Of a stretch of 20,531 nucleotides of DNA, positions 20 to 15,842 are shown one piece after another. Within the stretch, counting starts at the first letter, position 1. Each line of letters begins with the position of its first letter. This stretch comes from a virus. Made by a program: the position numbers and the translations under genes. The stretch lies in IMG/VR virus record IMGVR_UViG_3300020175_000962, positions 1 through 20,531 of that record. One strand, given 5' to 3'. The notes below the pieces were generated by a model. The model was not told the origin of the DNA and made no database searches. It saw nothing but the letters and a program-made list of their open reading frames with translations.

Positions 20-700
20 TTGATTGTTGCGACTAACTGTCAGTATAAGTTTACGGACAGAATAGAAGAGGCGTTTAAGCATATCGATCTTGTTTACTTT
101 AGCATCGATGGTTATAAGGAAAGCTATGAAAGAGATCGCTCGCCTGCTAAGTGGCCCAAGTTAATAAAGTTTTTAGATGATTTTAAAAATAGAGATCGAC
201 ATGGTTGTAGGGCGACTTGTAACTATGTTGTGAATCCTGACAATGTTCAAGACATCCAAACAATATATGATGAGATTGTCGTTCCTTATGAACTTGAAGA
301 GCTGAGACTCAACATTGCTCAAGATTGGTCTCCGGATAAGTCAATGCCTGGAGGATATTCACAGGAGCAGATCGATTATCTTAAAATAAATTGGAAAGAT
401 AACATAAAAGGAAAGTCAGAGTGGAATTTTGATAAATGTTTCTGGCCACAAGAAGGTTTGTACACGACTGTAGACGGTAGAGTTCTTATGTGTGCGCTCA
501 ACACAGCCGAGAAAGGTTTTGGTAATCTTTTTGAGCAAAACATAGATGATATAAGGTCGTCACAAAGATACACGGCCATACGACAATCATGTGAGACTAA
601 TTGTCCAACATCCCACTGTGAAAGGTGTTCATACAAAGAACTGGCACCTTTACTCCAACTATTGGAAGTACATAATGAAGTTTCGGAAGCATCTAAATGA
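20..700 (+). CDS. Radical SAM protein with SPASM-type C-terminus, N-terminus missing
   Basis: This is the C-terminal two thirds of a radical SAM enzyme. An SIDG strand near residue 30 followed by an R-D-R helix is typical of the mid-barrel. The C-terminus resembles a SPASM domain: a first Cys in DKCFWP, a DGRVLMC segment, a GNLF turn, then CETNCPTSHCERC. SPASM Cys residues usually bind auxiliary iron-sulfur clusters. The CxxxCxxC motif that binds the SAM-cleaving cluster is absent and would lie upstream. All three plus-strand frames carry a stop within the first 23 bases (TAG 2-4, TGA 10-12, TGA 21-23), so no upstream reading frame joins this one without a frameshift. The TTG at 20 is only the first usable start codon. 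It overlaps the aminotransferase gene by 26 bases. Substrate unknown; a role in modifying a sugar or amino-acid building block is inferred from the neighbours. Confidence 0.72.
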   Translation: MIVATNCQYKFTDRIEEAFKHIDLVYFSIDGYKESYERDRSPAKWPKLIKFLDDFKNRDRHGCRATCNYVVNPDNVQDIQTIYDEIVVPYELEELRLNIAQDWSPDKSMPGGYSQEQIDYLKINWKDNIKGKSEWNFDKCFWPQEGLYTTVDGRVLMCALNTAEKGFGNLFEQNIDDIRSSQRYTAIRQSCETNCPTSHCERCSYKELAPLLQLLEVHNEVSEASK

Positions 701-1682
701 CGTAGAAAGGATGAGAGGATCTTATCCTGCTCCTGGTTCTATAAGACTAGCATCAGCTGAACGAGACTCTTCGTTTGGTGAATTAATGTATAAGAAATTT
801 ATCGATTCGTTGTGTGATACCGATATAAGGTACTATCCTGACGTTGATTATGCATTGCATGTGTTGAGTAAATTTACAGGTGTACCAGCTAATCATTTGA
901 CGATAGGCCACGGATCCGATCAAATCATAAAAAATGTGTTTGAATGCTTTGTGCTCGAAGGTACAAATATTGTTACAACTGATCCCTGCTTTCCCATGTA
1001 TAAAGTTTATGCATCAGTTATGAATGCTGAAGTGAGAGCAGCTGGTTATACTAATAAAAGGGTAGATGTCGATCAGATGGTTGATCTGATTGATCATAAT
1101 ACATCGCTTGTAGTTTTTAGTAATCCATGTAGTCCAATAGGTGATATATTTTACACAGATGACATCAAAAGGCTGATAAAGAAAGCACGGTCATGTGGAT
1201 GTATAGTTCTCATTGATGAAGCGTATCAAGAATTTTCTGCAACTCCTTCGTGGATAGAAAATTATACACAATATAAAAATGTAATTGTGACAAGAACATT
1301 CTCTAAAGCAGTTGGCGCAGCTGGTCTCAGATTTGGTTATGGTGTTGCCAACGAAGTAACGATCAACTTGCTTTCCAAAGTAAAAAGCATGTATGAGGTT
1401 ACGGGTCCAACAATAAAATGGATGGAAACTGTTATTGACAATTGGGACGACGTTCGAACGTATATTGATAAAGTAAGAATAAACAAAGATGTGTTGATCG
1501 CAGAATTAGAAAAGCAAGGACACGAAGTTGTGCCTGGTTATTGTAACTGGATTCATACCACAAAGAACGATTACAATAAAATCCTTGACACAAAGCAATG
1601 TAAACTTCCATGGGACGATAGAACATGGACAAGGCTCTGTATACCAAGTAGACGAAAAACAGTAGGAATAATATTAGAATGA
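675..1682 (+). CDS. HisC-like PLP-dependent aminotransferase (fold type I)
   Basis: A 335-residue protein of the histidinol-phosphate aminotransferase/CobD type, class I/II aminotransferases that use pyridoxal phosphate. Visible marks are the N-terminal YPDVDYALH segment, GHGSDQII (phosphate-binding turn), SNPCSPIG (the Asn-Pro of the family), VLIDEAYQEF (the Asp that pairs with the PLP ring nitrogen), and TRTFSKAVGAAGLRFGY with the probable Schiff-base lysine at residue 211. The length is close to that of HisC. The ATG at 675 is preferred over a GTG-type start at 591, because the 28 residues in between lie inside the radical SAM gene and add nothing family-like. The last bases overlap the next gene by 4 (ATGA). 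Phages have no use for histidine synthesis on its own, so an amino transfer onto a sugar, amino alcohol or phospho-compound for the surrounding glycan genes is more likely. That role is inferred. Confidence 0.85.
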   Translation: MKFRKHLNDVERMRGSYPAPGSIRLASAERDSSFGELMYKKFIDSLCDTDIRYYPDVDYALHVLSKFTGVPANHLTIGHGSDQIIKNVFECFVLEGTNIVTTDPCFPMYKVYASVMNAEVRAAGYTNKRVDVDQMVDLIDHNTSLVVFSNPCSPIGDIFYTDDIKRLIKKARSCGCIVLIDEAYQEFSATPSWIENYTQYKNVIVTRTFSKAVGAAGLRFGYGVANEVTINLLSKVKSMYEVTGPTIKWMETVIDNWDDVRTYIDKVRINKDVLIAELEKQGHEVVPGYCNWIHTTKNDYNKILDTKQCKLPWDDRTWTRLCIPSRRKTVGIILE

Positions 1683-2497
1683 AAATAGCGTTGTGTTTAT
1701 CAGGTCAAATGCGCGCCATGAAGCATTGCATCGACACACTAGAAACAGCATTTCCAGATTGTGATGTTGATGTTTACGCAACTGTATGGGATTATGAAGA
1801 CAGAAATAATGTAGAACTGTTGAGGGAAAAAACTAATCTTGTTTATGTGAATACCATAACCAACGATGATCTTGCAATAAACAGTGAGTTTGAAAAGCAA
1901 GTCATAAAAAGAGGTTTTTACAATCAGTTTCATATAAAAAACTGGGCACCTGTCCCAGTGTGGAATCTTTCCAGAATAGAGACAATGGCTAAGTTTAGTT
2001 TTATTGCTGTTGCCCATGATGAATACGACTTTGTTGTGAGATCTAGATATGATACCAAATATCTTAGAAGTGTTGTTCCTATGCTTGACAAAACAAAGTT
2101 GCTTGTGTCTGAAGATATCGGTGGTAGCGCTCCCTGGGACATATGGAAGAATACAAGAATGATATATGACGGTTTTGCCGCAAGTTCTTACCCAGTTATG
2201 CTTGAGTATTATCAGTTTTCAAATTGGCTTCCTTCTTATTTTGAATACCATAGAGACACGTTAAAAGCAGAACGTACATTGGGTTGGTTTCTTGAAGAGA
2301 TAGCTGCGTTACCTATGAAGTTTGACAGAGATTTTCTTGGCTTACAGGTAAATCAAACTGAGTGGTACAACAGATCTAATCCTATTGAAACTAATTCGTT
2401 GAAGGATAAGCAAAAAGGCACGTTTGATTTTTACAAGAGTGATTTAAAGAAAAATCATCCGGACCTTTATGATGAGGTAGCATTCAGTTTTGAATAA
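1679..2497 (+). CDS. Putative glycosyltransferase, WavE-like (first of two paralogs)
   Basis: A 272-residue protein starting with a strand and the loop SGQMR (residues 8-12), followed by a DVYATVWDYED segment and YDFVVRSRYDT (RSRYD at 121-125). These are the marks of a loose family of glycosyltransferase-like proteins seen in LPS and capsule loci and in marine phages. The Arg-Tyr-Asp loop probably plays the part of the DxD metal/nucleotide-sugar site. It resembles the gene at 3125-3976 at the same positions (MKIA, SG..R, VVR.RYD, then a GG-S-P...W-DGFA...SY stretch), so the two are paralogs. The ATG start overlaps the aminotransferase stop by 4 bases, and the end overlaps the sulfotransferase by 8. 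Sugar donor and acceptor are unknown. Glycosyltransferase is the best guess, not proven. Confidence 0.62.
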   Translation: MKIALCLSGQMRAMKHCIDTLETAFPDCDVDVYATVWDYEDRNNVELLREKTNLVYVNTITNDDLAINSEFEKQVIKRGFYNQFHIKNWAPVPVWNLSRIETMAKFSFIAVAHDEYDFVVRSRYDTKYLRSVVPMLDKTKLLVSEDIGGSAPWDIWKNTRMIYDGFAASSYPVMLEYYQFSNWLPSYFEYHRDTLKAERTLGWFLEEIAALPMKFDRDFLGLQVNQTEWYNRSNPIETNSLKDKQKGTFDFYKSDLKKNHPDLYDEVAFSFE

Positions 2498-3128
2498 ATT
2501 CACTGTATATTGTGCTCATCGATCTGGTTCAAATTTTCTTCAACGACTAATTGTTGACAACTTTGAAGAGTGTGACTATATTGAAAAAGATAGAAGAAAA
2601 ATGGGATGGAAGCATCAAACATATCATCCAAAGTACATGAAGGGAAAGGATTTTTGTCTGTTGATAGCTAGACATCCAGTAAAATGGATGAATTCGTGTT
2701 TAAGATTCAATGCTGATATGTGGAAGTGGTGGGATGTTAATGGACAAGAACCCAACGGATTGTCGTTCCTTTATAAAGGAAGGCATGTAAGTGTAGTTAA
2801 GATGGTTGACAAGTGGAACTCTTTTTACAGAGAGTGGATTGAGAATTCGTCTTGTGATGTGGTCTGGTTTGCTGACCTTTTACAAGACGAATCTTGTAAC
2901 CGTGTACTTTGTAAAGTAGCAGAAAAAAACAATTTGACATTCAAAAACAAAAATATTTTCATACCAGAAAAAGTTCAGCACAGTCAAAAATATGATAAAT
3001 CAAAAAAAATTAATGAATTTAATTTATATATGAATGACAGGCTAGACATTCTTCCACATATTAAAGATTATGTTGTAGACAACATTGATAGTGAATTGAT
3101 TAAACACATAGAGCAAAATAAATTATGA
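2490..3128 (+). CDS. PAPS-dependent sulfotransferase-like protein
   Basis: A 212-residue protein with the two PAPS-binding elements of sulfotransferases. The 5'-phosphosulfate loop is HRSGSNFLQRLI (residues 10-21), a P-loop-like turn after the first strand. The 3'-phosphate motif is LIARHPVKWMNS (58-69), with Arg61 and the following Ser as expected ligands. Its expected reaction is transfer of sulfate from PAPS to a hydroxyl of a glycan or other acceptor. It starts with TTG at 2490, 8 bases inside the upstream gene, supported by GAGG at 2474-2477. No ATG fits, because the PAPS loop begins ten residues in. It sits between the two paralogous glycosyltransferase-like genes. The acceptor is unknown. 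Confidence 0.75.
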   Translation: MNKFTVYCAHRSGSNFLQRLIVDNFEECDYIEKDRRKMGWKHQTYHPKYMKGKDFCLLIARHPVKWMNSCLRFNADMWKWWDVNGQEPNGLSFLYKGRHVSVVKMVDKWNSFYREWIENSSCDVVWFADLLQDESCNRVLCKVAEKNNLTFKNKNIFIPEKVQHSQKYDKSKKINEFNLYMNDRLDILPHIKDYVVDNIDSELIKHIEQNKL

Positions 3129-3976
3129 AAATTGCAGTTGTATACAGTGGTGAGCCCCGGTCATACGATTCCGTTATAAATCAACATGAAGATCAATTCC
3201 TCGAAGGCCTTGATTATGATACCTATCATTCGACTTGGACAAAAACACCACAGCATGAAATAGATAAAATCATAAAAGCCAGAAACTTCAATGGATTGAA
3301 GCAAGTCAATTATTTTTGCAATGATAGGCCTGATCTATGGCATTTCGAAAACTTGCTCCTAAGATCAAAGCAGAATCATCCCATATTCATGCTTGGCCGC
3401 ATTCAGTATATGACAGCAATGGCATTCGAGCCAGTTCATTCAAACTCAGAGTTTTATGATGTTGTTGTTCGTCTTAGATATGATTTCGAATACAAAGGTA
3501 AACTGAAAGATTATTTGCATCTAATGCAAACCTCCAATGACATCGTGGTTACGCGGAAAATGGGTGGTAAGTCAAGTCCAATAAACATATGGGATGGTTT
3601 TGCATTTGGTTCTTATGCTGCTATGACATGGTACTTTCATTTCCACAGATGGATTCCCTTTTCACTTTTTAATCGAGATGTAGCAGGTTGGAAATTCCAA
3701 CCTGAGTTTGTTTACGGAACTTACCTGAGACATGCAGGTATGAATGTTGTGGAGAGTGATGTACAACCTGTGCATGTGTATCCAGACAACAAGACAGTGG
3801 ATGACCACAGAGAGATGAGAACTGTGCAATATTATAGAGACTTAGCAACCTTTCATAAACAATTCTACAAACAAAAAAATGGAAAGTTGATTATAGAAAA
3901 CGATAGTCCTTGGGTACCTGATAGTTTGATCATAGATACGTTACGTAAAGAAGGTTATAAGTGTGATGAAATATAA
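3125..3976 (+). CDS. Putative glycosyltransferase, WavE-like (second paralog)
   Basis: A 283-residue paralog of the protein at 1679-2497. It shares MKIA, the SGEPR loop (residues 8-12, like SGQMR), a Y-x-STW segment, YDVVVRLRYD (RLRYD at 116-120) and the later GGKSSPINIWDGFAFGSY stretch. A HVYPDN segment near the end may add ligands. The function is probably nucleotide-sugar-dependent glycosyl transfer, judged from the fold marks and the setting. It starts with ATG overlapping the sulfotransferase stop by 4 bases, and it overlaps the next sulfotransferase start by 11. The two paralogs differ enough to suggest different sugars or linkages. Confidence 0.6.
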   Translation: MKIAVVYSGEPRSYDSVINQHEDQFLEGLDYDTYHSTWTKTPQHEIDKIIKARNFNGLKQVNYFCNDRPDLWHFENLLLRSKQNHPIFMLGRIQYMTAMAFEPVHSNSEFYDVVVRLRYDFEYKGKLKDYLHLMQTSNDIVVTRKMGGKSSPINIWDGFAFGSYAAMTWYFHFHRWIPFSLFNRDVAGWKFQPEFVYGTYLRHAGMNVVESDVQPVHVYPDNKTVDDHREMRTVQYYRDLATFHKQFYKQKNGKLIIENDSPWVPDSLIIDTLRKEGYKCDEI

Positions 3977-4601
3977 CAGACAAACACCTTGCATATATAT
4001 CAATCTTCAAGTTGTGTATCACGGTATACCTAAGAACGCTTCTACAAGCGTAAAAAATGCACTGTATACGTATGAGCATGGTTATGAGTTTCAAGGTAAC
4101 AAACAGTGGATACATAAAGGAAATGAAAAGGGGGGTTCGATTTATCCTGATGTGAAATGTGTAAAGGAAAAGTTTGAATCGTGGTTCCATTTTTCTGTTG
4201 TTCGTAACCCTTATGATAGATTCAAAAGTTTCTATAATGATTTGTTTGCAGGTACAACAAAGATAAGACACAACGTACCTCCTTTCTATACAGATAACAA
4301 CATAGAGCTTAAACCAACACCTGTTGACAAAGTTATAGATATGATCGAAATGTTTCAAGATAGTGATGCAGATGAACACTTTGCATCACAAAGCTCGTTC
4401 ATCCATTATCCAGCTGAAACAGTAAAGCTGGAAGAGTTGGAAGAAAAGTGGTTACCGATAACAGAGTATCTTGGCGTTGATTACAAACCGCTCAACGTGT
4501 ATAATAAATCCGTTGACACAATAGAACTGACTAAAGAACAAAAACAAAGAATATATAATCGTTACGTAGACGATTTTGAAAACTTTGGATACGGAGCATA
4601 G
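3966..4601 (+). CDS. Sulfotransferase, Sulfotransfer_2 (carbohydrate sulfotransferase) type
   Basis: A 211-residue protein with hallmarks of the Sulfotransfer_2 family, which includes carbohydrate O-sulfotransferases. HGIPKNASTS (residues 19-28) matches the IPKxASTS form of the 5'-phosphosulfate loop, and FSVVRNPYDRFKSFY (76-90) is the 3'-phosphate motif, with Arg80 and Ser88. The C-terminal half has the usual WLPITEYLG...NVYNKS region, resembling the LG...N.S end of such enzymes. It is not a close copy of the first sulfotransferase, so the two probably act on different positions or acceptors. ATG at 3966 is chosen; a GTG lies one codon upstream at 3963. The gene overlaps the preceding glycosyltransferase by 11 bases and stops one base before the oxygenase ATG. 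Confidence 0.82.
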   Translation: MKYNRQTPCIYINLQVVYHGIPKNASTSVKNALYTYEHGYEFQGNKQWIHKGNEKGGSIYPDVKCVKEKFESWFHFSVVRNPYDRFKSFYNDLFAGTTKIRHNVPPFYTDNNIELKPTPVDKVIDMIEMFQDSDADEHFASQSSFIHYPAETVKLEELEEKWLPITEYLGVDYKPLNVYNKSVDTIELTKEQKQRIYNRYVDDFENFGYGA

Positions 4602-4602
4602 T

Positions 4603-5229
4603 ATGAAGAAGTTTGAATTTGAAGACAACATTTATAATGATGTTGCTAATCAATTACAAATACATGATGAATGTTTTGATGATAGGTTTATCATAGAACT
4701 TGATGATCTCACAGACAGGTTACCTATGGTTTTGACAAACATAGCTAACCGAAATACATATCCTTATGGCTCTCGAGGTACTCACAAACTCATTGGAGCA
4801 AACTTGTTTACCAGAAAAGGTGAGAACGAGATTGACAACAGATGTCCTAGAGAAATAATGGGTTTGTATAATCATGCAATAAATCGAATACTGCACGATG
4901 ATGGAGGTAATGTTGGTGTCAACGTTGGTCTTGATAGTATATCGTTAAATGTACAACCAATGGGTCAGAACGGTACACCCCATAGAGATGGTGTCTTCAA
5001 TGGTAACGACAAGACATTGATGTATTTTGTAAACAACAAGTGGGAAAAGAAGTGGGGTGGTCCTTTCCAGTTATTGAATCCAGAAACGAAAGAGGTTGTT
5101 AATGAAATAGATTTTGTTCCTGGCCGTTTAGTCTATTTTGATGGAGGATTATTACACAGAGGCCTCGCACCAAAAAACGTTCCTTACATCTATAGAAAAT
5201 CACTAGTATTCAGGATCAAAGCAAGATGA
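4603..5229 (+). CDS. 2-oxoglutarate/Fe(II)-dependent oxygenase (P4H-like)
   Basis: A 208-residue protein with the facial triad of 2OG oxygenases: PHRDG gives His127 and Asp129, LLHRG gives His185, and an Arg in YRKSLVFRI (198 or 204) should hold the 2OG carboxylate. The spacing between the HxD and the distal His (about 57) and the VPGRLVYFDGG strand before it fit the double-stranded beta-helix of prolyl-hydroxylase-like enzymes, which are common in T4-like marine phages. ATG 4603 is chosen over the longer frame from 4576, because it has CGGAG just upstream (from 4592) and leaves the preceding gene intact. It ends in an ATGA overlap with the next glycosyltransferase. Likely hydroxylates a sugar, amino acid or protein residue; substrate unknown. 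Confidence 0.8.
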   Translation: MKKFEFEDNIYNDVANQLQIHDECFDDRFIIELDDLTDRLPMVLTNIANRNTYPYGSRGTHKLIGANLFTRKGENEIDNRCPREIMGLYNHAINRILHDDGGNVGVNVGLDSISLNVQPMGQNGTPHRDGVFNGNDKTLMYFVNNKWEKKWGGPFQLLNPETKEVVNEIDFVPGRLVYFDGGLLHRGLAPKNVPYIYRKSLVFRIKAR

Positions 5230-5960
5230 GCGAACCAATAAAAATATTCATAGGCACTTCATCAAACGGTGAAGATGCTAAAGCTGAAATGGTTTACGAA
5301 TACTCGATTCGAAAGAACGCATCAGTACCCGTAGACATTACATGGATGAAACAAACGCGTGATGAAACATCTCCATGGGGTGATTGGGAAACACCAAACT
5401 GGTCTACACCTTTTTCAGGATTCAGATGGATCATACCTGAGGTGTGTGGGTTCCAAGGTAGAGCAATCTACACGGATTGTGATATGATAAATTTCAAAGA
5501 TATGAATGAACTTATCAATATCGATATGGAAGGTAAACCTATAGCTGCAAGGAGAGGCAATCGTTTTGGAGGTCATGAGTTTTGTGTCATGGTTTTCGAT
5601 TGCGCTGCTTTTGAACATCATGCAATGCCCTCACGAAGAATGAAAATGATTCCAGAATCTCATCACAGGATGATAAACAAGTTCAGTGGCAGCGCACTTG
5701 TGAAAGATCTAGATCCAAAATGGAATTGTTTAGACGGAGAGTATCTAGATCTCAAAGACATATGGCAGTTGCATTATACAAACATGGCAACGCAACCTTG
5801 GCGACCTGAATGGTATGTTGGTCCTCAAGAAGAACACAAGCGTAAGGATGTTAATGACGTGTGGTACAGTATGTATGAAGAAGCAAAAGCATTTGGTGTG
5901 GATGAGCGGAGCTATATACCTAAAGAATCGTTTGGTGAATACAATATTATAGGTCAATAA
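5226..5960 (+). CDS. GT-A fold glycosyltransferase (GT8-like)
   Basis: A 244-residue protein with a Rossmann-like start (IKIFIGTSS), a helix-rich donor region and a clear DxD motif, AIYTDCDMI (residues 80-88, DCD at 84-86). This resembles GT8-type retaining transferases, where the two Asp bind Mn and the nucleotide sugar. A later IWQLHYTNM segment has the His often found near the C-terminal metal ligand. Start ATG overlaps the oxygenase stop (ATGA). The product should add a hexose-type sugar to the growing chain made by the neighbouring genes. Donor and acceptor are unknown. Confidence 0.75.
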   Translation: MSEPIKIFIGTSSNGEDAKAEMVYEYSIRKNASVPVDITWMKQTRDETSPWGDWETPNWSTPFSGFRWIIPEVCGFQGRAIYTDCDMINFKDMNELINIDMEGKPIAARRGNRFGGHEFCVMVFDCAAFEHHAMPSRRMKMIPESHHRMINKFSGSALVKDLDPKWNCLDGEYLDLKDIWQLHYTNMATQPWRPEWYVGPQEEHKRKDVNDVWYSMYEEAKAFGVDERSYIPKESFGEYNIIGQ

Positions 5961-5961
5961 T

Positions 5962-6876
5962 ATGGGTAGTGTGGGAATCTTTCTCGAAAGTGCTAATGAC
6001 GATATCTTCAAACAGCTGTTGTTTAGTATGCATTGGGGAATTACAGAGTGTGGCAATGATGCGTATGCAACATATGGCAGTGATATGTCAAATATTGATG
6101 TTGCTGTTATATTTGGTTCCTGGAAAGACAGGCCATCAACTTGGCATAAGTGTAAAAATAAAATAGTCTCATCTGGCAAGCCTTTTGTTGTAATTGAAAC
6201 ACCGCTCATCGGTAGGGGTCCTGTTACTGATATTCTTCAAGACAGTTGGTACCGTATTGGTGTGAATGGTTTTCTCGCTGACACGGGTAGATTCTACAGA
6301 CAAAATAAAAACTATTCAGCTGACAGATGGAACAAGATTAAACACCAGTTGGGTGTAGAATTAAAGCCTTGGAAAGACCCTCAAGAAGGAAACTACATCG
6401 TCGTTGCTCTTCAATTACCTGGTGATGCTTCATTAAGAGGAACTGACATAACAAAATGGGCAGCAGAGACGGTACAAACGTTGCGTACGTACACAAGCAG
6501 ACCAATTATTGTTAGGACACCACAGCTTGATAGAGAGTTCGATAAAGAAAATATTCTAAACATTACTCGTATTGAAGGAGTTTCACTGGTTAGAGGAACT
6601 AGAGAAAATCTCTTTACCATGATTGATAATGCTTATGCAACAGTAACTTATAGTTCTGGTTTTGGAATTGACTCAGTCATTAGAGGTATACCAACCATAG
6701 CTGTGGATCCGGGTAACTTTGCCTACTCGCTTGGTAACAACAAACTTTCACAAATAAACAACCTTGTTCGTTCAAGTGATCGTGAACAATGGCTGTACAA
6801 TCTTTCTTGGGCTCAGTGGTCCAGAGATGAAATTAAATCAGGCGAAGCCTGGCGTCATATAAAAGAGCAACTATGA
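5962..6876 (+). CDS. Capsule polysaccharide synthesis-like (GT-B/KpsC-S-like) protein
   Basis: A 304-residue protein. The C-terminal part, about residues 190-260, has ENLFTMIDNAYATVTYSSG then GIDSVIRGIPTIAVDPG. This is the donor-site pattern seen in GT-B-like capsule synthesis proteins, where a hydrophobic strand, SS/TSG and a G-I/V-P strand form the nucleotide-sugar pocket. The N-terminal half holds a VAVIFGSW strand and a KPFVVIETP strand, consistent with a first Rossmann-like domain. It starts with ATG two bases after the previous stop and overlaps the methyltransferase by 4 bases (ATGA). A role as glycosyl- or Kdo-type transferase is likely, but the assignment rests on motifs only. Confidence 0.55.
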   Translation: MGSVGIFLESANDDIFKQLLFSMHWGITECGNDAYATYGSDMSNIDVAVIFGSWKDRPSTWHKCKNKIVSSGKPFVVIETPLIGRGPVTDILQDSWYRIGVNGFLADTGRFYRQNKNYSADRWNKIKHQLGVELKPWKDPQEGNYIVVALQLPGDASLRGTDITKWAAETVQTLRTYTSRPIIVRTPQLDREFDKENILNITRIEGVSLVRGTRENLFTMIDNAYATVTYSSGFGIDSVIRGIPTIAVDPGNFAYSLGNNKLSQINNLVRSSDREQWLYNLSWAQWSRDEIKSGEAWRHIKEQL

Positions 6877-7550
6877 ATATTGAAGAATTTCGTGATATTC
6901 ACGTTATAAACGATGGTTTCTATCCTGTAGATGCTAAAGATAAGGAGTTTGATTTTTGTCTTCCGATATGCAATGCTTATGGACATTTTATTGAGTTGGG
7001 TGTTTGGTTTGGCAGAAGTATCAACTACATGGCTTCGAAGTATCCAAAATATCATTTCTATGGGTTTGATACCTTTGAAGGCGTGAAAGAAATATGGGAA
7101 ACAGGTGGCAAGAAAGTAGATATGTCACGTTTCCAAATTTCAAAAGTAGACATGGATGGTGACTCTGGATTACCTAAAGTAAAAGAAAACGTAACATTGA
7201 CCAAGGGTCTCTTTCAAGATACATTAACTAAGTGGCTCGAGGAACATGAGGGTCACATCTCTTTCATTAACATGGATCCAGACATATACTCTGCTACAAT
7301 ATATGCCTTAGAGACGTTGAACGAAAGAATCGTACCAGGTACAATAATTAGGTTCGATGAAATATGTGACTGGCGTGATGTAAACTTTCCTGGTTGGGAT
7401 GTTAACAACAATCATCAGATATCAATATACACCACATGGAGAGAAGGTGAGTGGAAAGCTCTCAACGAGTGGTTAGAAAAATATGACAGACAAGTAAAAC
7501 CAATATGGAGGAACTGGCACCAGTCAGCTGGTGTACAAGTAATTAAATGA
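6873..7550 (+). CDS. SAM-dependent O-methyltransferase, TylF/macrocin-O-MTase-like
   Basis: A 225-residue class I methyltransferase. FIELGVWFGRSINYM (residues 39-53) is the SAM-binding motif I, YGFDTFEGV (63-71) is the TylF-type motif II region, FINMDPDIYSATIYALETL is the strand with acidic ligands, and TIIRFDEIC fits the Mg-binding Asp/Glu seen in TylF enzymes. Family members methylate sugar hydroxyls in antibiotic or surface glycans. The start overlaps the upstream stop in ATGA form, and the end overlaps the APS-kinase-like gene by 4. In this setting it probably caps or decorates a sugar of the same glycan. Exact substrate unknown. Confidence 0.82.
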   Translation: MNIEEFRDIHVINDGFYPVDAKDKEFDFCLPICNAYGHFIELGVWFGRSINYMASKYPKYHFYGFDTFEGVKEIWETGGKKVDMSRFQISKVDMDGDSGLPKVKENVTLTKGLFQDTLTKWLEEHEGHISFINMDPDIYSATIYALETLNERIVPGTIIRFDEICDWRDVNFPGWDVNNNHQISIYTTWREGEWKALNEWLEKYDRQVKPIWRNWHQSAGVQVIK

Positions 7551-7966
7551 AAATACTAGTTATGGGACTACCTGGATCAGGTAAAACTTGGTTAGCAGAA
7601 AGATTGCAACCAGAACTCGAATGTGCATGGTACAATGCTGATGCTGTGCGAAAGATGGCAAACGACTGGGACTTCTCTGATGAAGGACGCCAACGTCAAA
7701 GTAATCGTATGAGAAGTATTGCTGACTATGAGAAAGGACATGGTCGTACAGTTATTTGCGACTTCGTGTGTCCAACTCAGGAAACCAGGGATGCTTTTGA
7801 CGCAGACATGACTATCTGGGTTGATACAATAACAGAAGGAAGATTTGAAGATACCAATAAAGTATTTCAAAAACCATCACAAGTTGAGTATACAATTACA
7901 AGACACTTGAGTGATGATGAAATAAAGGACTTTGCAAGTGAGCTCAAGGAGAAAATAAATGTTTGA
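7547..7966 (+). CDS. Adenylylsulfate (APS) kinase-like protein
   Basis: A 139-residue P-loop kinase with a Walker A GLPGSGKT (residues 7-14). The segments YNADAVRKMANDW, FSDEGRQRQSNRMRSIADY and VICDFVCPTQETRDAF match, in order, the DGDxxR, FSxxDRxxNIRR and ISPxxxxR elements of CysC-type APS kinases. APS kinase uses ATP to make PAPS, the donor for sulfotransferases, two of which lie 3-5 kb upstream. It is shorter than the usual CysC (about 200 residues), and the KGLYKKA segment of the family is replaced by EGRFEDTNKVF. It may therefore phosphorylate a related adenylylated compound instead. It overlaps the methyltransferase by 4 and the nucleotidyltransferase by 8 bases. Confidence 0.78.
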   Translation: MKILVMGLPGSGKTWLAERLQPELECAWYNADAVRKMANDWDFSDEGRQRQSNRMRSIADYEKGHGRTVICDFVCPTQETRDAFDADMTIWVDTITEGRFEDTNKVFQKPSQVEYTITRHLSDDEIKDFASELKEKINV

Positions 7967-8369
7967 TTGGCAGAAACCAACTACTGAAATGTTAGGACGA
8001 TGGCAACCATGGCACGACGGACACACTGCTCTCTTCAAAAAAGCCCTGCTGGAAACTGGTCAAGTAGCAATCATGATTCGCGATGTCGGTGGTGTTGTTG
8101 GGCAAGATGCTGGGGGAGGCCGCACCGGTAACCAAAATGACAATCCTTTTGACTACGATGCTGTGGTTGAAAATATCAAAGCTGGGTTAGCAGAAGCTGG
8201 TTTCACTTACGAAGAAGAATATGTTATAATGAAGGTTCCTAACATTGTTGACATTAGTTATGGTCGCGGTGTTGGGTACACGTTCACAGAACATGACCTT
8301 GGTGATGATATCCACAATGTCAGCGCCACAAAAATTAGAGCTCAACTACGTGAGCAAGGAAAATTGTAG
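7959..8369 (+). CDS. HxGH nucleotidyltransferase (cytidylyl/adenylyltransferase-like)
   Basis: A 136-residue nucleotidyltransferase-superfamily protein. GRWQPWHDGH (residues 13-22) is the phosphate-binding HxGH turn, and VSATKIR (121-127) is the C-terminal ISxTxIR motif that also contacts the triphosphate. These motifs occur in NMN adenylyltransferases, CTP-dependent cytidylyltransferases and, more distantly, ATP sulfurylase. Directly next to the APS-kinase-like gene, with ATG 7959 preceded by AAGGAG (7946-7952) and an 8-base overlap, the attractive reading is an ATP-sulfurylase-type step that makes APS. NAD salvage or making a CDP-linked glycan precursor are equal alternatives on sequence alone. 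Confidence 0.7.
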   Translation: MFDWQKPTTEMLGRWQPWHDGHTALFKKALLETGQVAIMIRDVGGVVGQDAGGGRTGNQNDNPFDYDAVVENIKAGLAEAGFTYEEEYVIMKVPNIVDISYGRGVGYTFTEHDLGDDIHNVSATKIRAQLREQGKL

Positions 8370-9139
8370 TGAGATTTGAAGTAGTAACATCGATGAACCA
8401 GTCGTACTATGACAACATTGGGCATAAGATGTTGCTAAGTTACATACACAGCTGGCCTGAGGATGTAAAACTGAGAATATACACAGAAGACAATCTTGTT
8501 ATTCCAAACAGTTTGCATTACAAAAAATATGATCTGGTGCATCTTGAACCCGAGCTTATAAAGTTTGTGAATCGTAACAAAGACAGAAAGGATCAGCAAA
8601 ATCCTAAAGAGCTTCATCTTGGTGCAGTACGGTTTTCATATAAGACGTTTAGCATAATCAATGCCTGCACAACATCTTTAGCTGATTATGTGATATGGTT
8701 AGATGCAGATACATTTACACATACACCCCCCACCCACGAATTCCTTGAGTCATTAGTAAAGCCAGAAGCATACCTGACATATCTTGGTAGAGAGAACAAT
8801 TACAGTGAGTGTGGTTTTGTGATCTACAACGTCAATCACGAATGTAACAGCAGCTTCATGGAAAGTTGGAAGAAACTTTACACCACAGACAATGTCTTTC
8901 GGTTGCCTCAGTGGCACGACAGCTATGTGTTTGATTCGTTGCGTAAGTCGTTTGAAGATTTTCATGAGATTGCTAACTTTAATTTGAGTCCTTGGGGTAA
9001 GGATTACGACCATGTTTTTATTAACAGTGTGCTCGGAGAGTATATGGATCATATGAAAGGCGATCGTAAGTACGAAGGAAAAAGTAAAAAATCTGATTTG
9101 ACAAGAAAAGTAGAAGCATCATACTGGAGAGACCTATGA
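8369..9139 (+). CDS. GT-A fold glycosyltransferase
   Basis: A 256-residue protein with a GT-A layout: an RFEVVTSMN strand, a helix, then DYVIWLDADTF (residues 107-116, DAD at 112-114). That is a textbook DxD site for Mn and nucleotide sugar. ECGFVIYNV and a WHDSYVF segment further on resemble the acceptor and second metal-binding parts of such enzymes. The start is GTG at 8369, overlapping the upstream TAG by one base, with GCAAGGA about 9 bases upstream. The end overlaps the next small gene in ATGA form. Sugar specificity unknown. Confidence 0.75.
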   Translation: MRFEVVTSMNQSYYDNIGHKMLLSYIHSWPEDVKLRIYTEDNLVIPNSLHYKKYDLVHLEPELIKFVNRNKDRKDQQNPKELHLGAVRFSYKTFSIINACTTSLADYVIWLDADTFTHTPPTHEFLESLVKPEAYLTYLGRENNYSECGFVIYNVNHECNSSFMESWKKLYTTDNVFRLPQWHDSYVFDSLRKSFEDFHEIANFNLSPWGKDYDHVFINSVLGEYMDHMKGDRKYEGKSKKSDLTRKVEASYWRDL

Positions 9140-14675: not shown

Positions 14676-15315
14676 CATACCTAAACTTACAAGAGTAACA
14701 GAGAACGGAAAGCGGTACTATCTTACACCAGATGGTAATAAGTACCCTTCCGTTACTACTGTTGCTGGTATCTTTGCGAAAGAAAAGATAATCCAATGGA
14801 GGAAGAGAGTAGGTAAAGAACAGGCTACCAAGATAACTACGCAAGCATCAGTTAGAGGTACTGCTGTTCATAAGTTGTGTGAGGACTACATTAACAATGT
14901 AGAAGATTATACAAAAGGACAGATGCCTGTCAATGTTGATTCGTTCAACAGTATAAAAACTATCATCGACTCAAGTATCAACAATGTTGTGATGCAAGAG
15001 TGTCCACTCTATTCACACTATCTCAAAGTAGCTGGTACTGTTGACTGTATAGCAGAATGGAACGGTAAATTATCAATCATTGACTTCAAGACGTCACGTA
15101 AGCCCAAGAAGCTAGAGTGGATCGATAACTATTTCATGCAGACAGCAGCCTATGCTGTAATGTTCGAAGAGCTGACAGAGAAACCAATAACAGATTTAGT
15201 TATATTGATATCAGTTGACAACGAAGAGCCTCAGATATTCACACAGAAGCGAGACGAATGGATATCAAAGTTTATGGAAGCAAGGGATGAGTTCAAGAAT
15301 CGGTATGGGTACTAA
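14647..15315 (+). CDS. PD-(D/E)XK nuclease, RecB/Cas4-like
   Basis: A 222-residue nuclease. RGTAVH (70-75) gives the N-terminal His, GTVD (130-133) and IIDFKTS (144-150) give the catalytic Asp, Asp and Lys, and QTAAY (165-169) is the RecB-type motif. This is the Cas4/RecB-like exonuclease layout found in many T4-like marine phages, usually linked with recombination or genome processing. The start is ATG 14647, 29 bases inside PhoH. Its TAA (15313-15315) interlocks with the stop codon of the minus-strand gene. Confidence 0.85.
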   Translation: MKFTHYNPHNIPKLTRVTENGKRYYLTPDGNKYPSVTTVAGIFAKEKIIQWRKRVGKEQATKITTQASVRGTAVHKLCEDYINNVEDYTKGQMPVNVDSFNSIKTIIDSSINNVVMQECPLYSHYLKVAGTVDCIAEWNGKLSIIDFKTSRKPKKLEWIDNYFMQTAAYAVMFEELTEKPITDLVILISVDNEEPQIFTQKRDEWISKFMEARDEFKNRYGY

Positions 15316-15842
15316 AATGGATTGAAGAGTCTTCCTCTTCTAAATCCTTCTGGTATCTCACCGTAACATCTTTTCTCTTCACCCGTTGTGCGATTATGAA
15401 TCCAAAACCATCCACCCTTGTTGTTATTATTCACAGATTTTTGCTTTCTGGTTTCTTCTGAATCAACGTAACCCTTCTTACCATGAAGATTATATTTGTA
15501 GTAGAACTTGAGCTTTTCAGATTTTGACAAACGAATATGTTCTGGATCAACAGCACCATAACGTCCATTGACCTTACCAGAGACGTTTTTAGATATTCTT
15601 TGCTTAGTTTCTTCCGTATGCCTAAACTTAACATTCTTTTTTCTGATGCGGTTGACGACTCGTTTGTCGACTTCACACTCGTTAAGAACATCGCACTTGT
15701 AGATCTTCTTATAAGCGTCTGTACGGACGAAAATAGACTCGATGTTCTGATTGGTCTCGAGAAGCTCCAAACCACGCTTATTTCGCTTCTCAGACGCTAT
15801 AATCAGCTGTTTTTCGGTGTTGTCATAGTATAGATAGTACAT
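15312..15842 (-). CDS. Free-standing homing-endonuclease-like protein with NUMOD3 motif
   Basis: A 176-residue basic protein on the strand opposite to every neighbour. Residues 75-96 (HTEETKQRIS...GK...GRYG) match the NUMOD3 DNA-binding helix common to GIY-YIG and HNH homing endonucleases. The C-terminus (WFWIHNRTTGEEKRCYGE then IPEGFRRGR) is the tail repeatedly seen in phage homing endonucleases. No GIY-YIG or HNH catalytic motif is visible in the first 70 residues, so it could be a shortened or catalytically dead form, or a type whose nuclease part I do not recognise. Both it and the nuclease gene end in overlapping stop codons (TAG on minus at 15312-15314, TAA on plus at 15313-15315). A cargo gene that inserts between essential genes is the usual pattern. 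Confidence 0.78.
   Translation of the reverse strand: MYYLYYDNTEKQLIIASEKRNKRGLELLETNQNIESIFVRTDAYKKIYKCDVLNECEVDKRVVNRIRKKNVKFRHTEETKQRISKNVSGKVNGRYGAVDPEHIRLSKSEKLKFYYKYNLHGKKGYVDSEETRKQKSVNNNNKGGWFWIHNRTTGEEKRCYGEIPEGFRRGRLFNPF
15319..15347. terminator. Hairpin between convergent genes, possible terminator
   Basis: Beginning four bases after the TAA of the nuclease gene, GGATT-GAAGAG-(5-base loop)-CTCTTC-TA-AATCC can form an 11-bp stem with a 2-base bulge. No T-tract follows on the plus strand; on the minus strand it is followed by ATTTT. It lies inside the 3' end of the antisense gene. It may limit readthrough from both sides, but a chance hairpin cannot be excluded. Confidence 0.35.

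Follow-up and report, generated by a model that had tools for sequence, protein, structure and literature searches.

A putative virus-encoded route to PAPS: an APS-kinase-like protein paired with a small HIGH-superfamily nucleotidyltransferase in a phage glycan gene cluster

The IMG/VR virus record IMGVR_UViG_3300020175_000962, a marine phage fragment of 20,531 bases that was analysed in its entirety (and is termed the window below), carries genes for a T4-type RNase H and for PhoH, together with a run of glycan-type genes in which a short P-loop kinase and a small nucleotidyltransferase (NT) lie side by side. This pair, and its predicted role in the formation of 3'-phosphoadenosine 5'-phosphosulfate (PAPS) by way of adenosine 5'-phosphosulfate (APS), are the subject of this report. 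The features concerned are the following, where L and a number denote loci that were compared with the window.

20 to 9139, plus strand: the glycan-type run that contains the pair, recognized from Pfam and PHROG matches and found in the same order in L341-L343.
2490 to 3128, plus strand: a divergent sulfotransferase and predicted PAPS user, assigned from the fold of its AlphaFold2 (AF2) model, with no sequence-family match.
3963 to 4601, plus strand: a sulfotransferase of the Sulfotransfer_2 family and predicted PAPS user (PF03567, 50.8 bits against a cut-off of 22).
7547 to 7966, plus strand: an APS-kinase-like P-loop kinase of 139 residues, the first half of the pair, assigned from PF01583, a PDB profile search and its partnership with the NT.
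7959 to 7966, plus strand: the 8-nucleotide overlap of kinase and NT, ATGTTTGA, in which the NT start lies over the kinase stop, as read from the sequence.
7959 to 8369, plus strand: a HIGH-superfamily NT of 136 residues, predicted from homologue contexts, AF2 model and fold, and invariant residues to be a non-canonical ATP sulfurylase.

All four open reading frames were found at these coordinates on the plus strand. The run begins with a SPASM protein, a HisC-like aminotransferase, two phrog_13607 proteins and the sulfotransferases at 2490 and 3963, and continues with a 2-oxoglutarate (2OG) oxygenase, a GT8 glycosyltransferase, a protein without assigned function, a TylF-type methyltransferase, the kinase, the NT and another protein without assigned function; each junction from 1679 to 8369 either overlaps or leaves a gap of 1 nucleotide. 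The first possible starts at 591 (GTG) and 4576 (TTG) are probably too early, and a promoter scan returned a number of sites not above that in shuffled sequences. A preliminary description of this DNA had reported an adjacent and translationally coupled HxGH nucleotidyltransferase and APS-kinase-like gene, with two sulfotransferases upstream in the same run; the adjacency and both sulfotransferases were confirmed (that at 3963 by PF03567 and that at 2490 by model fold), and the overlap suggests that kinase and NT may indeed be translationally coupled.

The best family of the kinase is PF01583, the APS kinase domain (33.6 bits against a Pfam cut-off of 21.1). A profile built from 23 homologues matched APS kinases in the PDB at approximately 28 to 56 bits and shikimate kinase at approximately 25 bits (two very large chains also scored, through the P-loop alone), and the D..R, F and R positions of the protein align with those of APS kinases. 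A kinase was present at 79 of the 83 NT loci first examined, within 200 nucleotides in 76 of these, which, together with the order kept in related phages, argues that the pairing goes beyond chance. The two proteins correspond to the halves of a single family, phrog_10255, for which ‘kinase’ is the sole stated function: the first half is matched by the kinase (104 bits) and the second by the NT (74 bits), and the family is fused in phages of Stenotrophomonas, Xanthomonas and Clavibacter, whereas the window has two overlapping genes. The fused protein of Stenotrophomonas phage Bhz60 (L082:5593-6333) adjoins a NADAR-domain gene and has a MazG-like gene near it, a company unlike that found in marine phages.

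The NT carries both signatures of the HIGH superfamily (HxGH and S-x-T-x-x-R), and its AF2 model (pLDDT 84, pTM 0.79) adopts the superfamily fold. Across 32 aligned sequences the invariant positions include GR.QP.HxGH, R41, NP, PN, YGRxVGY and SATxIR, and the window protein is 53-58% identical to the aligned bacterial homologues. When the model was compared with known structures, phosphopantetheine adenylyltransferase (PPAT) and nicotinamide mononucleotide (NMN) adenylyltransferase (NMNAT) aligned at Z values of about 10, and ATP sulfurylases appeared among weak Foldseek rows; because all of these, and pantothenate synthetase as well, match the model, the fold leaves the choice of substrate undecided. 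The protein also falls below the cut-off of every curated family among the Pfam and NCBIfam-type models. The profile searches that the preliminary description had proposed for both proteins were divided in outcome, placing the kinase in PF01583 above its cut-off and the NT in no ATP sulfurylase family, its nearest family being NMNAT, under cut-off. Canonical Sat was rejected as an identity for the NT, which scores 11.4 bits against a cut-off of 24.3 for PF01747 and finds no Sat among the PDB matches of its profile, and the scan of curated models gave no match to any CysD model. The stretches TRN..H.GH and GRDHAG, as read from the SAR11 Sats of L244 and L245, are replaced in the NT by QPWHDGH and YGRGVGY, although the family's YGR[DG]VGY may be an echo of GRDHAG. 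Viral NTs contain a glycine-rich insert (of the DAGGGRT type, at window 8090-8140, residues 44-61 approximately) that is absent from bacterial NTs and is modelled with the lowest confidence.

Homologues of the NT occur widely among SAR11 and related alphaproteobacteria: a scan of bacterial genomes found at least 498 relatives, of which the best 80, nearly all from SAR11, were examined. In one of these (L184) the NT ends a sulfate-assimilation operon composed of a siroheme gene, the C-terminal part of cysG, cysI, cysH, a DUF2061 gene, the kinase and the NT, and two more loci (L185 and L248) display the same operon tail, as judged by gene size and reading. The L184 genome matches neither Sat nor CysD. 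At about 25 of the 80 loci the NT, with or without the kinase, lies just upstream of aprM-aprB-aprA (aprA at 995 bits; aprB by PF12139), and in another set (31 of the 46 same-contig genomes tabulated) the kinase and NT are convergent with aprA, an order that was read in L346-L348. The NTs linked to aprMBA do not form a single group on the tree, at least two changes of label being required. The kinase and NT, fused or paired, adjoin sulfotransferases in L242 and L179, and in L167 are separated from one by a few genes.

Among 40 NT-bearing genomes, aprA was found in 35, Sat in two and CysD in none. In a separate sample of 147 Pelagibacterales genomes, chosen irrespective of the NT, 110 carried the NT and 108 carried aprA (both in 101, NT only in nine, aprA only in seven and neither in 30); the corresponding Fisher value, about 1e-16, is not a true probability because the genomes are related and often incomplete. 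The kinase is missing from 17 of 39 NT genomes, and aprA is present in all 17. In several SAR11 genomes a halogenase-type oxygenase resembling HalD and WelO5 lies downstream of the kinase and NT (L203:10345-11196; PF23169, 45 bits).

The likeness of the NT to NMN adenylyltransferases raises the prospect that the pair serves NAD salvage, in which, as in NadR, nicotinamide riboside would be converted to NMN by the kinase and NMN adenylylated by the NT, perhaps so as to replenish NAD+ when the cell defends itself against phage. The best matches of the NT profile in the PDB are an archaeal NMNAT (38 bits) and NadM (32 bits), the NT shares with the archaeal-type enzymes the fold and the GR.QP.H.GH, NPF and S.T..R stretches, the fused Bhz60 homologue has its NADAR-domain neighbour, and the fusion of L242 weakly matches the nadR model (25 bits against 341). 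Every NMNAT score, however, is far under its cut-off (23.7 bits against 127 for NF002243, and 17.5 against 181 for TIGR01527); unlike those enzymes the NT has its own YGRxVGY and accompanies sulfur genes in genomes that retain NadD, an ordinary copy of which is kept in most NT-bearing SAR11 genomes (over cut-off in 28 of 40); and the kinase has its closest relatives among APS kinases, in the company of cysI-cysH, aprMBA and sulfotransferases. Since the NMNAT scores are low, NadD is present and the contexts are those of sulfur metabolism, NAD salvage was ruled out as the principal explanation and is considered unlikely. The preliminary description had taken a grouping with NMN adenylyltransferases to mean that the supply of APS is absent, a rule that proves misleading: the NT belongs to no ATP sulfurylase family and has a real resemblance to NMN adenylyltransferases, which would trigger the rule wrongly, yet its homologues keep the company of sulfur genes.

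An unpredicted pattern, which arose from the inspection of exceptions, concerns the position directly upstream of aprM. That slot is occupied by a HIT-domain protein in six of the seven aprA genomes that lack the NT, and likewise in each of the 20 genomes sampled in which the NT lies elsewhere (six of these proteins were scanned and score 59-76 bits), whereas no HIT protein was found there in the NT-at-apr loci examined. Such an alternation is what would be expected of non-orthologous displacement. The HIT-family protein Fhit cleaves APS with release of AMP (PMC7072326). That the NT alternates in this slot with an unrelated protein, whose superfamily includes enzymes that cleave APS, speaks for an action of the NT on APS. 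The same alternation would also suit an NT that acts on APS in another manner, for example as an APS:phosphate adenylyltransferase or an APS-clearing hydrolase, while the kinase would obtain PAPS from APS that the host makes, and clearance of APS would be enough beside AprMBA. HIGH-superfamily enzymes, however, consume a nucleoside triphosphate and release pyrophosphate, and the cysI-cysH operon of L184, in its genome without Sat or CysD matches, requires synthesis of APS; this alternative is accordingly regarded as improbable. As a separate observation on the same region, the genes upstream of aprM in SAR11 are either pabB-pabA-pabC or a CADD-family protein (TIGR04305), a family linked to p-aminobenzoate supply (L351:1982-4854, L164:9272-9949 and their equivalents in L349-L375), and this alternation looks like a second displacement at the aprM locus.

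The viral NTs form one clade (100/99), separate from the bacterial NTs. In 17 of 49 distinct viral loci the kinase and the NT are separated by a DUF2061 membrane protein, and the DUF2061 gene of the cys operon likewise stands beside the kinase. The neighbours of viral pairs include KDO-type, epimerase, carbamoyltransferase and GT8 genes, and HIGH-family cytidylyltransferases are known to perform the activation of sugars and glycan precursors, from which it might be supposed that the pair (as a small-molecule kinase and a cytidylyl- or adenylyltransferase) produces an activated sugar, or a glycan precursor of another kind, with no relation to sulfate. That explanation would account neither for the association with aprMBA and cysI-cysH and the lack of CysD and Sat, nor for the link to DUF2061 and the APS-kinase character of the partner, and is given very little credence.

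Among the viral relatives, L342 has the order of the window, with DUF2061, kinase and NT in succession, and L341 resembles it apart from an inserted IMPDH gene and the lack of the sulfotransferase at 2490. In L343, the closest of all, the run passes straight to the homologue of the gene at 8369, and no NT was found anywhere on its whole 41-kb contig. The presence in L343 of both sulfotransferases without the pair indicates that the pair is a discrete and removable supply cassette, and that the sulfotransferases can be carried independently of it; host PAPS could presumably serve them. The ‘complete module’ of the preliminary description is to that extent overstated: the supply is an optional cassette.

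The two sulfotransferases differ in how they were recognized. That at 2490 matched no Pfam or NCBIfam sulfotransferase profile, and relatives were found on two contigs only; its AF2 model, built from three sequences, is of modest confidence (mean pLDDT 74). All 50 of the best VIA-align rows for that model are nonetheless sulfotransferases, led by human tyrosylprotein sulfotransferase (Z 10.9 over 176 residues), which points to a sulfotransferase fold, and Foldseek alone is weak (best E 0.17). Sulfotransfer_2 genes were found in 13 of 30 NT-bearing phage contigs and in two of 20 NT-free contigs bearing PhoH (nominal Fisher p 0.014; per-base p 0.036, statistics that ignore relatedness), and Sulfotransfer_3 (PF13469) gave nothing above cut-off in the phage contigs.

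The best-supported reading of these data, by virtue of the bacterial sulfate-assimilation, APS reductase and sulfotransferase contexts in genomes mostly lacking known ATP sulfurylases, is the virus-encoded route from sulfate through APS and PAPS to a glycan that the preliminary description had proposed. The pair is probably a virus-encoded, two-piece PAPS synthetase that supplies the phage glycan cluster, its NT being an ATP sulfurylase of neither the Sat nor the CysD type. In the first step the NT, a small HIGH-superfamily adenylyltransferase, would join ATP and sulfate to form APS; in the second, its short APS-kinase-like partner would phosphorylate APS to PAPS; and in the third, the two sulfotransferases (perhaps with others of the host) would transfer the sulfate to a glycan that is processed by the products of the neighbouring glycosyltransferase, methyltransferase, aminotransferase and oxygenase genes. 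Beside AprMBA in SAR11 this NT, frequently without its kinase, would operate in reverse and convert APS to sulfate and ATP. A broader proposal, favoured with rather less assurance, is that the NT constitutes a third kind of ATP sulfurylase, of about 120 residues and with no detectable sequence relation to Sat or CysDN, that runs forward with the kinase to provide PAPS (in phages and some bacteria) and backward, alone beside SAR11 AprMBA, to recover ATP from sulfite oxidation, a step that has been reported to be missing from Ca. Pelagibacter.

Several observations weigh against the PAPS synthetase assignment. By sequence, the nearest relatives of the NT are NMN adenylyltransferases, and it lacks the loop of canonical Sat that bears the TRN motif. 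The kinase is far under the cut-off of the apsK equivalog model TIGR00455 (25.6 bits against 138.7; the bacterial kinase of L200 reaches 44 bits) and, being short as well, is classed as a divergent, APS-kinase-like protein and not as a standard APS kinase. Two SAR11 genomes hold both the NT and a canonical Sat with TRN..H.GH and GRDHAG present (L244:1021-2118 and L245:1072-2136), and the genome counts rest on related and often incomplete genomes. In viruses, L343 keeps the run, both sulfotransferases and the methyltransferase without kinase or NT; the enrichment of Sulfotransfer_2 genes is modest; and the fused Stenotrophomonas phage homologue has no annotated sulfotransferase nearby, and the Bhz60 copy adjoins its NADAR-domain gene.

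The arrangement resembles known sulfate-activating systems (animal PAPSS, and bacterial Sat or CysDN with CysC), which likewise pair or fuse an APS-kinase-type with an adenylyltransferase-type protein and occur in contexts of sulfate assimilation or sulfotransferases; in PAPSS the kinase comes first, as in the fused homologues L242, L251 and L252. Unlike Sat and CysD, the adenylyltransferase here is a HIGH-superfamily protein of about 120 residues that matches neither. An earlier survey of phage auxiliary genes (Kieft et al. 2021; PMC8190135) reported cysC, and states that neither a sulfate adenylyltransferase nor an APS reductase was found in phages; the window kinase is similarly a phage-borne APS-kinase-type gene tied to sulfur metabolism, and differs in being coupled to a candidate APS-forming gene. 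In SAR11, Smith et al. (2016) described Ca. Pelagibacter as possessing AprBA but neither sat nor cysDNCHIJ; a cysC is nonetheless entered in their table for the aprA-bearing strains (PMC5069961). Because AprBA is present without sat or cysDN, the fate of APS derived from sulfite has been an open question, and that work gave the step from APS to sulfate no enzyme (PMC5069961); homologues of the NT are found in the aprMBA operon of SAR11. A literature search of open-licence PMC papers found no earlier link of the NT family to sulfur. The family thus represents a concrete and cheaply testable candidate for the APS step of SAR11, which are among the most abundant bacteria of the ocean. If the assignment is correct, marine phages would gain a compact two-gene route to PAPS, and hence to sulfated glycans, and a protein family now named only ‘kinase’, or left unnamed, would acquire a function in sulfur metabolism.

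Other features of the window were noted in passing. The two phrog_13607 paralogues (1679-2497 and 3125-3976), which alternate with the sulfotransferases and begin with a sequence of the MKIA.xYSGxxR type, have no Pfam match and are retained in all relatives compared. The HisC-like aminotransferase (591-1682), which stands beside a SPASM protein, recurs next to the fused kinase-NT of L242 (4540-5589; 31% identity), hinting at a common glycan pathway. Finally, an open reading frame of 176 residues on the minus strand (15312-15842) resembles, as judged by eye, a phage protein of the homing-endonuclease type.

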